Assembly (NCBI GenBank): GCA_018266615.1
Contig: JAFEAB010000089.1
Location: 1 to 64,000 of the forward strand
DNA length: 64,000 bases
From: Bacteroidota bacterium
Lineage (GTDB): Bacteria > Bacteroidota > Bacteroidia > Chitinophagales > Chitinophagaceae
Direction: 5' to 3'
Part shown: in pieces, positions 30,827 through 54,140 of the stretch
Layout of the letters: the number at the start of each line of letters is the position of its first letter
How positions within the stretch are numbered: position 1 is the stretch's first letter
Program-made: the position numbers and the translations under genes
The notes under the pieces: generated by a model
Database searches by the model: none
What the model was told of the DNA's origin: nothing
Seen by the model: the letters and a program-made list of their open reading frames with translations, nothing else

Positions 30827-30900
30827 GTTCGGCTTCCATAGTTGAAATTTGTCTTCAAGGTTTTTGTTGAGGTATGTTCCCCCTGCTCTCTCTAGTTTGT

Positions 30901-31003
30901 AACTACGGGTTTGCTGAAATTTTATTCTTAAGCCTCCGCATGGTCTTCGGATTTTCGGCGAAAAGATTCTAGATTAAATTTATTTAGCCACGAATGCACG
31001 AAT
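30901..31003 (+). repeat. 103-bp dispersed module, copy A
   Basis: Starts AACTACGGGTTTGCTGAAAT and ends in the 19-bp core TAGCCACGAATGCACGAAT. It aligns without gaps to copy B (31233-31335) and to the inverted copy C (53787-53889); all three are 103 bases. Confidence 0.85.
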
Positions 31004-31209
31004 GAAAAAACAATAGCCATGAATGCACGAATGAAAAAACAATAGCCACGAATGCACGAATAAAATAACAATAGCCACGAATGCACGAATAAAAAAACAA
31101 TAGCCATGAATGCACGAATGAAAATACAATAGCCACGAATGCACGAATAAAAAAACAATAGCCACGAATGCACGAATGAAAAAGGCAATAGTCCCGAATG
31201 CACGAATAA
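30985..31209 (+). repeat. 29-bp tandem repeat array, eight units
   Basis: Units begin at 30985, 31014, 31043, 31072, 31101, 31130, 31159 and 31189. Each is a TAGCCACGAATGCACGAAT core plus a 10-base A-rich tail (GAAAAAACAA and variants). Each core holds two tandem copies of CACGAATG. Units differ mainly at core base 7 (C/T) and in the tail; the eighth is shortened and degenerate. Confidence 0.92.
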
Positions 31210-31232
31210 ATGCCCCGCTGTTGGTAGTTTGA

Positions 31233-31335
31233 AATTACGGGTTTGCTGAAATTTTATTTTTGCGCCTCCGCATGGTCTTCGGATTTTAGGTGAAAAGATT
31301 CTAGACTAAATTTATATAGCCACGAATGCACGAAT
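31233..31335 (+). repeat. 103-bp dispersed module, copy B
   Basis: Same layout as copy A, ending in one core at 31317-31335. With the two 29-bp units before it (from 31159) it forms a block of about 177 bases that reappears inverted at 53787-53962 with roughly a dozen differences by eye. Confidence 0.85.
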
Positions 31336-31439
31336 GAATGCTCCCGTTATGAAGATGGATTTGAGGTTAAAGAAATTTTAGCCTGCAATAAATATTCTTC
31401 GGTCAGAATTCTTTATACAATTATTTTTTGATCTTATTT

Positions 31440-31464
31440 TTACCCCCGGGGTGGGGGCAGCAAA
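31440..31464 (+). repeat. GC-rich hairpin element, copy 1
   Basis: CCCCCGGGGTGGGGGCAGCAAA at 31443-31464, preceded by a T-run. An almost identical sequence (one base different) occurs at 54034-54055 in the second repeat cluster, in the same orientation. Confidence 0.7.
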
Positions 31465-31634
31465 CTGTCTTCAAAAATTTACATTCAGGCACTCTCTTAA
31501 AACTGATATTTCTTTTTTACACCAGAAGTGCAGCAACCGTTTTCTGCACCCTGGTATCCCTATAATCTCAGGTTCATTTCCTTTTTGTTTGCATTCGGAG
31601 ACATGTTCCGAAAATTTTTATAATACAAAACAAG

Positions 31635-31663
31635 AAAGCCGCATCTTTCTGGGATACGGCTTT
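31635..31663 (-). terminator. Intrinsic terminator after relA/spoT and the 76-residue gene
   Basis: AAAGCCG and CGGCTTT form a stem with a loop of about 14 bases that has further internal pairing (ATC/GAT). It lies 24 bases past the minus-strand stop at 31688 and is followed by CTTGTTTTG on that strand. Confidence 0.6.
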
Positions 31664-31687
31664 AATAAAAATGAAGAATTAAGTACA

Positions 31688-34329: not shown

Positions 34330-34414
34330 GCGGATGTGGCGAAACTGGCAGACGCACCAGACTTAGGATCTGGCGGAGCAATCCATGTAGGTTCGATTCC
34401 TATCATCCGCACCA
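34330..34414 (+). tRNA. tRNA-Leu (anticodon TAG), CCA encoded
   Basis: The acceptor stem GCGGATG (34330-34336) pairs with CATCCGC (34404-34410), followed by discriminator A and genomic CCA (34412-34414). The anticodon stem CCAGA/TCTGG encloses loop CTTAGGA with anticodon TAG at 34364-34366. The T-loop is GTTCGATTCC and a class II-type variable arm is present. It reads CUN/CUA leucine codons. It precedes tig on the same strand. Confidence 0.96.
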
Positions 34415-34466: not shown

Positions 34467-35831
34467 ATGGCAGTTGTAGAAAGGGAAAATATCGGAATTC
34501 TGAACGATAAACTAACCGTAAAGATTACAAAAGAAGATTATCTCCCCGCATTCGACAAAAAGCTGAAAGAATATTCCAAAACAGCAAACATCCCAGGGTT
34601 CCGGAAAGGAATGGTTCCTTCGGGAATGATCAAAAAAATGTACGGCCCCTCCATATTTAATGATGAGGTGTTACGCACCGTAGAGAAGGAATTATTTTCT
34701 TATCTGAATACCGAGAAGCCAGACATTTTCGCTCAACCCTTGCCGTTATCAAGCGATATCCGAATGGATATGAACAACCCGTCGGATTTTAATTTTGATT
34801 TTGAAATCGGGCTTAAACCGGTTTTTGAAATGCCTGATTTTGCCAAAGCAAAACTTACCCTGAACAAGGTAGAAGTTACTCAGGAAATGCTGGAAGAAGA
34901 AGCAGACAGACTGCAAATGAAAGCCGGTAAAATGACCGAACCGGAAATTATTGATAACGACAATAACGTACTTAACCTTCTGTTCACCGAATCAGATGAA
35001 GACGGTAACCCGGTTGAAGGAGGAATTAAAAAGGAAAATTCTGTGCTGCTCAAATATTTTACTCCCTCACTGCAAAAGGAATTAATGGGTAAAAAGTCCG
35101 GCGACCACCTGGTTTTCCAACTGAACAAAACCTTTGACGGCGATAAGCTGGAAATGATGCTGCATGATCTGGGACTTGATCCGCACGACAAAAATGCCGG
35201 TGAAAAATACTTCCGCCTGGATATCGAAAAACTGGGCCTGGTGGAAAAACGAGAAATGAATGAAGACTTTTTTAATGAAGTGTACCCGGGTAAGGAAATT
35301 AAATCGGAAGAAGCCTTTAAAGAAATCCTGAAGGGCGAAATTGAAAAATATTGGTCGGCACAATCTGCCAATCAACTGCACGATCAGATCTATCATTTCC
35401 TGGTTGATGAAACCAAAATGGAATTCCCTGAGAAATTCCTGAAACGCTGGCTCCAAACCAGTGGGGAGAAACCGAAAACGGAAGAAGAAGCTGAATCGGA
35501 ATTCCCCGGATTTAGCAATCAGTTAAAATGGACGCTGATCAGCGATAAATTGGCTGTAGATAATAGGCTGGATGTAAGCCAGGAAGAAATCCGGGAATAC
35601 ATGAAGAACGAAGTATCCCGATATTTCGGACAAATGAATTTGGGTGAGAATATGGATTGGCTGGATGGGTATGTAGACCGGATGATGAAAGATGAGAAAC
35701 AACTGGAAGCCACCTATCGCAAGGCGTCCGCTGAAAAATTGTTTAACTGGTTGGTAAGCCAGGTTGAACCGGTTGAAAAAACGGTTACTCCGGATGAGTT
35801 AAATGCCATGCAGCACCATCACCATCATTAA
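34467..35831 (+). CDS. tig: Trigger factor (ribosome-associated chaperone) with a native C-terminal His5 tail
   Basis: The protein has 454 residues. The N-terminal ribosome-binding domain carries the signature GFRKGMVP (family usually GFRKGKVP). The middle region (about 150-260) is a divergent FKBP-like fold (GDHLVFQL, FRLDIEKLGLVEKREMNEDFF), probably without strong PPIase activity. The helical C-terminal substrate-binding domain follows. The protein ends in MQ then five histidines (residues 450-454), encoded by alternating CAC/CAT codons before the TAA. A perfect hairpin follows. It lies downstream of tRNA-Leu. Confidence 0.95.
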   Translation: MAVVERENIGILNDKLTVKITKEDYLPAFDKKLKEYSKTANIPGFRKGMVPSGMIKKMYGPSIFNDEVLRTVEKELFSYLNTEKPDIFAQPLPLSSDIRMDMNNPSDFNFDFEIGLKPVFEMPDFAKAKLTLNKVEVTQEMLEEEADRLQMKAGKMTEPEIIDNDNNVLNLLFTESDEDGNPVEGGIKKENSVLLKYFTPSLQKELMGKKSGDHLVFQLNKTFDGDKLEMMLHDLGLDPHDKNAGEKYFRLDIEKLGLVEKREMNEDFFNEVYPGKEIKSEEAFKEILKGEIEKYWSAQSANQLHDQIYHFLVDETKMEFPEKFLKRWLQTSGEKPKTEEEAESEFPGFSNQLKWTLISDKLAVDNRLDVSQEEIREYMKNEVSRYFGQMNLGENMDWLDGYVDRMMKDEKQLEATYRKASAEKLFNWLVSQVEPVEKTVTPDELNAMQHHHHH

Positions 35832-53430: not shown

Positions 53431-53786
53431 ATTCGTGCATTCGTGGCTAATTTAAATGCTATATCTGAAAGGTTCATAGTTTGGGAAATACATACAGCGA
53501 AGTAAGAAACCTATTCATGCATTCGTGGCTAATTTAAATGCTATATCTGAAAGGTTCATAATTTGGAAACTCGTACAGCGAAGTAAGAAATCTATTCGTG
53601 CATTCGTGGCTAATTTAAATGCTATATCTGAAAGGTTCATAGTTTGGGAAATACATACAGCGAAGTAAGAAATCTATTCGTGCATTCGTGGCTATTGTTT
53701 TTTCATTCGTGCATTCGTGGCTAATTTAAATGCTATATCTGAAAGGTTCATAGTTTGGGAAATACATACAGCGAAGTAAGAAACCT
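53431..53786 (-). repeat. 82-bp tandem repeat array
   Basis: The core ATTCGTGCATTCGTGGCTA begins at 53431, 53513, 53594, 53676, 53705 and then 53787 (the module C core). The spacing is 82, 81, 82, 29 and 82 bases. Between cores is a conserved stretch (AATTTAAATGCTATATCTGA, then AAGGTTCATAGTTTGGGAAA...). A single 29-bp unit is inserted at 53676-53704. Two cores carry ATTCATGC in place of ATTCGTGC. Non-core sequence is conserved between units. Confidence 0.9.
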
Positions 53787-53889
53787 ATTCATGCATTCGT
53801 GGCTAAATAAATTTAATCTAGAATCCTTTCGCCGAAAATCCGAAGACCATGCGGCGGCGTAAAAATAAAATTTCAGCAAACCCGTAATT
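53787..53889 (-). repeat. 103-bp dispersed module, copy C (inverted)
   Basis: The reverse complement of modules A and B, same length. The core is at its left end (53787-53805, ATTCATGC variant). The extension to 53962, with two 29-bp units, is the inverted counterpart of 31159-31335. Confidence 0.87.
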
Positions 53890-53914
53890 TCAAACTACCA
53901 ACAGCGGGGCATTT

Positions 53915-53962
53915 ATTCGTGCATTCGTGGCTATTGTTTTTTCATTCGTGCATTCGTGGCTA
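53915..53962 (-). repeat. Two 29-bp repeat units
   Basis: Cores at 53915-53933 and 53944-53962, 29 bases apart, with the TTGTTTTTTC spacer (reverse complement of the GAAAAAACAA tail in cluster 1). Confidence 0.85.
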
Positions 53963-54030
53963 AATAAATTTCTGCTACACTAAATATTTCAAAGTAAATA
54001 ATTCGGGTTGATTTTTTTTCATCCGTATTT

Positions 54031-54055
54031 TTGCCCCCGGGGAGGGGGCAGCAAA
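54031..54055 (+). repeat. GC-rich hairpin element, copy 2
   Basis: GCCCCC-GGGGA-GGGGGC with CAGCAAA following, one base different from the copy at 31443. It could fold as a 6-bp stem and 5-base loop. Not followed by a T-run, so not a terminator. Confidence 0.7.
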
Positions 54056-54093
54056 ATGCATAAGAATTTTTGGAAGATCTTACTAAATCCAAT

Positions 54094-54140
54094 ATTCGTG
54101 CATTCGTGGCTAATATCAATGCTATACCAGGAAGGTTATT
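54094..54140 (-). repeat. Isolated degenerate core unit
   Basis: Core at 54094-54112, followed by a diverged version of the 82-bp unit's spacer (ATATCAATGCTATACCAGGA, then AGGTTAT). Confidence 0.75.

Follow-up and report, generated by a model that had tools for sequence, protein, structure and literature searches.

What a short tandem array is doing between two genes, and how it came to be there, is the question raised by an intergenic interval within a 64,000-nt stretch of DNA from a member of the Chitinophagaceae (Bacteroidota), the whole of which is termed the window. The interval is bordered by the stop of an acyl-CoA dehydrogenase-like gene on the plus strand and the stop of a 76-aa open reading frame (ORF) on the minus strand, with a RelA/SpoT-like gene also among the array neighbours (Table 1). 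A sequence-only reading had described eight 29-bp units, each carrying a 19-bp core of two tandem 8-mers and an A-rich tail, and had suggested a repeated protein-binding site (iteron-like) or a product of replication slippage. The array is real, as eight cores at a 29-bp spacing (final step 30 bp) were read at 30985-31207 and TRF reported the same limits (period 29, 7.7 copies, 91% matches), with a ninth core in addition. Matches to the core pattern CACGAATGCACGAAT at up to two mismatches numbered 18 in the window versus 0.09 expected from dinucleotide shuffles, which excludes chance, and comprised nine on the plus strand (30989-31335) and nine on the minus strand (53431-54108), the latter forming a second cluster such that the window holds more than one array. 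The same reading had ruled out a CRISPR array and was borne out, since the tails repeat within each array and there are no unique spacers; it had also been unable to place the repeat in a named family, and the core is no obvious member of any. No Rfam family scored above its gathering score at the array, the sole match in the window being a tRNA at 34330-34411.

Table 1. Positions of the features discussed (window coordinates, except for the last row, which refers to locus L179 on contig C106 of the host genome G000).
Feature	Position	Strand	Basis or remark
Array, eight core units, 29-bp period, TAGCCACGAATGCACGAATRAAAAAACAA	30985..31207	+	TRF, pattern search, reading
Ninth core, separate from the regular array	31317..31336 (core match 31321-31335)	+	Pattern search, reading
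~80-bp lead-in to the first core	30905..30984	+	Reading; boundaries approximate
Second copy of the ~80-bp segment, leading into the ninth core	~31229..31316	+	Reading
Further copy of the ~80-bp lead-in segment	~53806-53912	-	Reading; approximate
GC palindrome GCTGCCCCCACCCCGGGGG, part of a second dispersed element (~120 bp)	31443..31461	-	
Second core cluster, nine cores, 82-, 128-, 150-, and 29-bp units	53431..54108	-	TRF, pattern search, reading
GC palindrome between two cores of the second cluster	54034..54052	-	
Intergenic interval with the array	30827..31687	.	Gene order kept in relatives without core or GC palindrome
Miniature element copies at L179	3942-4053, 7259-7370, 7550-7665, 12759-12870		

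Two further observations concern coding capacity in the window. Long ORFs run across the array on the minus strand (30928-31203 and 30980-31165) with FVHSWLL and FIRAFVA repeats, and are probably products of the repeat and not genes, while similar ORFs elsewhere may be annotated as small proteins. A trigger-factor-like protein encoded at 34467-35831 (+) ends in a natural C-terminal histidine run (MQHHHHH).

The host genome (G000) is a 2.9-Mb draft of 110 contigs in which clusters at contig ends are truncated. Exact matches to CACGAATGCACGAAT numbered 202 and those with at most one mismatch 298, compared to 0 for the reversed pattern in the same genome, so the core is not confined to this site. 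The 202 copies were grouped in approximately 30 intergenic clusters, and 32 clusters, a minimum number given by those among the matches listed, were analysed. By simple ORF-based gene calls, with nine contig-end clusters left out, no cluster overlapped a called gene except one that encloses a GxxExxY gene (see below). Comparison of the 32 clusters revealed that GCCACGAATGCACGAAT was common to them almost without exception (one position in 30/32) and that positions outside it held approximately 1 bit or less nearly everywhere on both sides. The doubled repeat of the sequence-only reading therefore exists with an invariant part of 17 bp, not 19 bp, that consists of GC, one 8-mer, and a 7-mer followed by G or A. 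Whole units, which that reading had taken as conserved, are near-identical inside each array, but the tail is specific to the locus. Spacing between cores varied by locus, with values of 22, 25, 28, 29, 42, 49, 65-66, 82, 122, ~200, and ~329 bp. Each cluster hence has its own unit length (22 to ~330 bp) and the 29-bp period is without general meaning; the conserved thing is the core, not the unit or the period.

These data bear on a role as a binding site. A repeated protein-binding site at the array is possible, and recognition of the core by a host protein, as an iteron-like, nucleoid, or transcription-end element, would agree with the intergenic position of the clusters and the invariance of the core across them. 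That such a host function accounts for the arrays is nevertheless very improbable, as a spacing of 22 to more than 300 bp keeps no helical phase (the geometry of three helical turns minus two bases, noted for the 29-bp unit, is lost with it), the clusters show no preferred orientation relative to genes (6 convergent, 10 tandem, and 6 divergent among those with two called neighbours), and no replication gene was found among the neighbours of the window array. An iteron-like origin also has to be given up in view of the ~30 intergenic sites. In addition, the exact core was present in just 3/59 relatives, and in few copies there, which indicates no conserved host function.

Most arrays in this genome are direct repeats without a hairpin, unlike the inverted pairs found elsewhere, a difference that speaks against the mobile-element reading given below; a single core is not palindromic and inverted core pairs form a hairpin. 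Tandem repeats containing the core accounted for 30/33 at array loci versus 0/11 in 370 kb of control DNA, where the former is partly so by construction because array loci were selected for the core, and what is informative is how sparsely comparable arrays without the core occur in the control DNA. The core-free control repeats included L341 (3422-4115 and 14554-15200) and L343 (136-528), with periods of 279, 240, and 128 bp. A plain minisatellite, in which slippage lengthens a short repeat or REP-like hairpin with no nuclease involved, would give near-identical units per array with a length that varies by locus, as observed, and replication slippage may explain the copy number at each locus. 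It does not explain the dispersal of the core to ~30 sites, the lack of the core in all 11 control tandem repeats, the scarcity of comparable core-free arrays, or the gene association and co-evolution described below, such that a plain minisatellite is considered improbable.

The history of the window site was approached via its neighbours. The order acyl-CoA dehydrogenase, 76-aa ORF, and RelA/SpoT-like gene recurs in several relatives, and in none of them did the same interval hold a core or GC palindrome; the gap from the acyl-CoA dehydrogenase gene to the 76-aa ORF is 861 bp here versus 24 bp in genome G026. The window array is therefore most simply read as an addition in this lineage. Beyond the relatives, the same core occurs across the Bacteroidota, often as an inverted hairpin, and a scan of the genomes of 84,980 species for GCCACGAATGCACGAAT returned at least 120 stretches that were nearly all Bacteroidota by title, with a minority of the stretches listed from Ignavibacteria/Chlorobi, Planctomycetes, and Acidobacteria.

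Genomic context linked the core to a gene that the sequence-only reading, otherwise partly supported, had missed. In one host-genome cluster (L158, cluster C7), a 13-unit array of 28 bp and an opposed 8-unit array of 22 bp surround a single ORF that encodes a GxxExxY protein, as shown by matches to TIGR04256 (E 4.9e-35, 120.4 bits against a cut-off of 35) and PF13366 (E 6.7e-32, 110.7 bits against a cut-off of 22; full member), and this is the sole PF13366 gene of the genome. The association recurs in foreign DNA, with a GxxExxY ORF in 8 of the 120 core stretches listed, 7 of them with cores within ~160 bp, compared to ~0.04 adjacent genes expected by a rough Poisson estimate for the same stretches. 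GxxExxY was the largest recurring family beside the core among the 120 foreign loci listed, and the other recurring core-adjacent families scanned there included no transposase. PF13366 was present in 44/49 core-bearing genomes versus 101/198 genomes of an even phylum sample (Fisher p 2.4e-7), a comparison that is supporting only since the two sets differ in make-up. The family was missing in 5/49 core-bearing genomes, and the same-genus G005 and G011 carry 3 and 6 cores without a PF13366 gene, suggesting either that copies outlive the gene or that the drafts are incomplete. Within the genus, the number of cores was compared with the presence of GxxExxY and no link emerged. Truncated or stop-interrupted GxxExxY copies lie beside intact ones in G271, G291, G266, G016, and others, as would be expected for genes that arrive and then degenerate. 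Phage records gave no match to GxxExxY, and the open-licence literature mentions the family in passing, with neither a role for it nor an account of the core repeats found there.

The AF2 model of the GxxExxY protein (pLDDT 88.8) had its best structure match in SSO0001 (Z 9.8, 97 residues, rmsd 3.2), which is a Cas4 nuclease. A D...ExK motif (D79, E89, and K91) is invariant in alignment A1, and GxxExxY is thus a predicted PD-(D/E)XK-fold nuclease. A homing-endonuclease catalytic domain was among the weak fold matches, and a sequence search against solved structures gave no match.

The bracketing of the gene by repeats was not peculiar to this core. Thirty GxxExxY genes drawn from the phylum via the gene, and not via any repeat, in most cases had repeats on both sides that follow the same grammar in different letters, such as ACCACAGAGG...gene...CTCTGTGGTT and, in another case, CGCAAAGACGCAAAG. 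Four heptamer classes were distinguished (CACAGAG, CGCAAAG, CACAGAT, and CACGAAT), with the repeats matching within an element and the class nearly exclusive within the flanks of one gene. The inverted score of a gene's own flanks was 16.5 versus 9.5 with the flanks of other genes and 8.7 for DNA 550-700 bp away (58 genes), a value reached in 0/20,000 permutations; for all 93 genes, the own-flank score was 16.2 versus 9.2. The flank threshold was exceeded by 57/93 GxxExxY genes versus 0/26 RelA controls. A further 21/96 genes had none of the four repeat classes, and 8 of these 21 form one separate clade (L242, L244, L315, L319, L321, L325, L332, and L232) in which the flanks of at least two members match in another motif, which resembles GTCTGAATTAGGATTT.

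The letters of the repeat follow the protein tree. On a tree of 96 proteins, which has few columns and many weak forks, the flank class changed 24 times versus 55.5 when shuffled. The seven CACGAAT-flanked proteins form one clade (SH-aLRT 99) with distant hosts including the genome of the window, Bacteroidales, Flavobacterium, and others, and those of them in alignment A1 have 56-70% identity to the protein of the window genome; this set was retrieved via the core, so the flank label of the clade is partly ascertained, with the other classes unaffected. Protein identity was correlated with 6-mer similarity of the flanks (r 0.34, p 0.0005; r 0.25 with the same p without the CACGAAT set) whereas sequence 450 bp away showed no such correlation (r 0.06, n.s.). 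Near-copies favour such clustering and the nearest-neighbour and far-flank controls therefore matter; among proteins less than 90% identical, the nearest neighbour had the same flank class in 56/75 cases with 21 expected.

Comparison of related sites revealed gain or loss of the gene along with its repeats. An arsC-like to arsM-like gene order, with names inferred from the Pfam matches LMWPc and Methyltransf_31, is common to L058 and L080, which come from two species, and an ACR3-like transporter follows in L058. Between the two genes, L058 has a single hairpin of 46 nt, each arm of which is the core (-29 kcal/mol when folded as RNA), and L080 has direct cores, a core hairpin, a GxxExxY gene, and a second core hairpin at the same junction. 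As these junctions lie in apparent arsenic-resistance operons, read-through transcripts would carry the hairpins. In Sphingomonas parapaucimobilis, a GxxExxY gene bounded by CACGCGAAGGCGCGAGGACGCGAAG and CGCGTCTTCGCGGCTTCGCGTG lies between fabD and fabG, and neither the repeats nor the gene were present between fabD and fabG of S. paeninsulae. A putative third pair at Bacteroides/Phocaeicola radA was dropped as another gene was present there. The two filled/unfilled pairs, which are from species too diverged to define a target-site duplication, argue from sequence comparison that the GxxExxY gene moves.

The same sites are central to the strongest rival explanation, in which the repeats are targets and not ends, i.e., pre-existing host sites beside which a homing-type GxxExxY gene inserts while the arrays spread and grow by other means. 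The arsC-arsM junction with a hairpin and no gene, next to another genome with hairpins and gene at that place, is as anticipated for such targets, as are the cores without GxxExxY in G005 and G011 and the homing-endonuclease domain among the weak fold matches. Conversely, the unfilled Sphingomonas fabD-fabG site is free of any repeat, such that the repeats arrived or departed with the gene, and the letters vary between elements, match within them, and follow the protein, which element ends fit at least equally well. Repeats that served as host targets are on balance unlikely.

A second dispersed element accompanies the core arrays. This ~120-bp element contains a GC palindrome (TTTGCTGCCCCCnCCCCGGGGGyAAAAATA) and was found in 40 places in the array loci versus 2 in the 370-kb control. 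A conserved stretch follows the palindrome and often ends in TTTAGCC and the core, with some copies lacking the core. At L179 (G000:C106), four ~110-115-bp miniature elements are bounded by opposed cores (inverted pairs ~96 bp apart); one copy was folded and gave a single long hairpin, and these elements are candidate non-autonomous copies. Other repeat systems were also present. At L183 (G000:C108, ~600-1400), a Y1_Tnp (RAYT-like) gene lies beside its own palindrome tandem array around GTGCGCCCCTACGGGGC, the complement of which contains GTAG, and this looks like an ordinary REP/RAYT system separate from the core. PF05635 genes at L246-L275 lie between matched inverted degenerate repeats in 22/30 cases, with other letters, e.g., GTATCAAGTATCAAG.

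An ordinary owner of the core was sought among these systems. The host genome has two Y1_Tnp genes, and the MITE-like inverted pairs of L179 and the GC-palindrome element often found beside arrays would likewise be in keeping with a MITE moved by an ordinary insertion sequence transposase or RAYT to which GxxExxY is a bystander. This has very little probability, as no core was present in 6-8 kb around each of the two Y1_Tnp genes, even at three mismatches, the L183 gene has a different palindrome array, and the largest core-adjacent family at the 120 listed loci is GxxExxY with no transposase seen; the core-bearing gene that was found belongs to a nuclease family and not to known transposases. 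A RAYT was thus ruled out as the owner of the core, as was the four-helix-bundle gene of the host (L185), near which there is no core.

Several described systems resemble the core in part. REP/BIME sequences with their RAYT (REPtron) are also short, high-copy intergenic repeats, often arranged as inverted pairs or, along with adjoining DNA, as tandem clusters; a gene devoted to DNA processing is enclosed by copies of the repeat that belongs to it, and repeat types correspond to protein types (PMC8266576, PMC3733652). A dispersed high-copy intergenic repeat (202 copies) with a dedicated gene (GxxExxY) between copies is likewise what was found here. RAYT-type REPs are palindromes of 20-50 nt preceded by a GTAG tetranucleotide, whereas no conserved GTAG was present in GCCACGAATGCACGAAT or its flanking bases across the 32 clusters, the gene encodes a PD-(D/E)XK GxxExxY nuclease in place of an HUH transposase, tandem 7-10-mers make up the repeat, and the gene unit is inserted whole between host genes. 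Since both the GTAG and the HUH transposase are lacking, the core is not filed under REP/RAYT despite a similar working. The BrickBuilt minisatellite-MITE of the Bacteroidota species Porphyromonas gingivalis (23-nt unit, 19 loci, leader and tail flanks) also comprises intergenic tandem units of similar size, but has its own unit AGAYCATARTATCCTCTCRTRTG, a constant unit length, termini matching known insertion sequences, and no mention of a linked nuclease gene (PMC4596501). The TAACTGA direct repeats of Beggiatoaceae, Cyanobacteria, and some Bacteroidetes are similarly short, largely intergenic oligomers that are patchy between phyla with no mechanism reported, but consist of a different heptamer with a proposed post-transcriptional role (PMC4679880). 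The 23S rRNA intervening-sequence/four-helix-bundle genes (PF05635) share the phylum and the matched inverted degenerate repeats and differ in their unrelated protein family, their repeat letters, and the core-free surroundings of the host's own copy (L185). Finally, by curated cut-off the core-bracketed gene is a full member of TIGR04256/PF13366 (PDDEXK_3), a named model for which the sources consulted state no function, and the flanking repeats lie outside the family description.

Together with its repeats, the nuclease gene makes up a compact unit, and the comparisons show its association with the core and its gain or loss between related sites. We consider it fairly likely that the window array derives from the terminal repeat of a small mobile element with GxxExxY as its sole gene, as a copy or remnant that lacks the gene and was amplified locally. 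The array would thus probably be a by-product of mobile DNA of a minimal kind that has been little described. A complete element would span ~0.45-0.6 kb and consist of core repeats or a hairpin, the GxxExxY gene, and opposed core repeats or a second hairpin. Co-evolution and the predicted fold suggest that the protein may recognise its own repeat as duplex or hairpin. Cutting at the core could then release or copy the DNA that cores enclose, so that it enters further intergenic sites either together with the gene or lacking it, and core-only copies might be mobilised in trans by the enzyme. Repeated cutting and repair at the core would duplicate the core plus neighbouring DNA and lead to tandem growth, such that unit length would be fixed in each array and differ between arrays.

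The wider proposal that GxxExxY genes are widespread minimal transposable elements with clade-specific repeat ends, the enzyme reading its own repeat letters and moving itself along with gene-less arrays and hairpins, is put forward tentatively, as it may well not hold. If true, it would explain why repeats of the CACAGAG, CGCAAAG, CACAGAT, and CACGAAT types surround the genes, and the four-helix-bundle genes would represent a parallel system. GxxExxY is present in about half of the sampled phylum genomes (101/198), and its repeats suggest a hypothesis for its function, namely that of a nuclease specific for its repeat that propagates its own gene. This hypothesis names a likely substrate for each protein clade, would explain a class of dispersed repeats, and is open to a direct in vitro test that uses short oligonucleotides and a protein of 130 residues. 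If this is true, such nucleases would constitute a second enzymatic route, besides the RAYTs, by which bacterial intergenic space is filled with short repeats.
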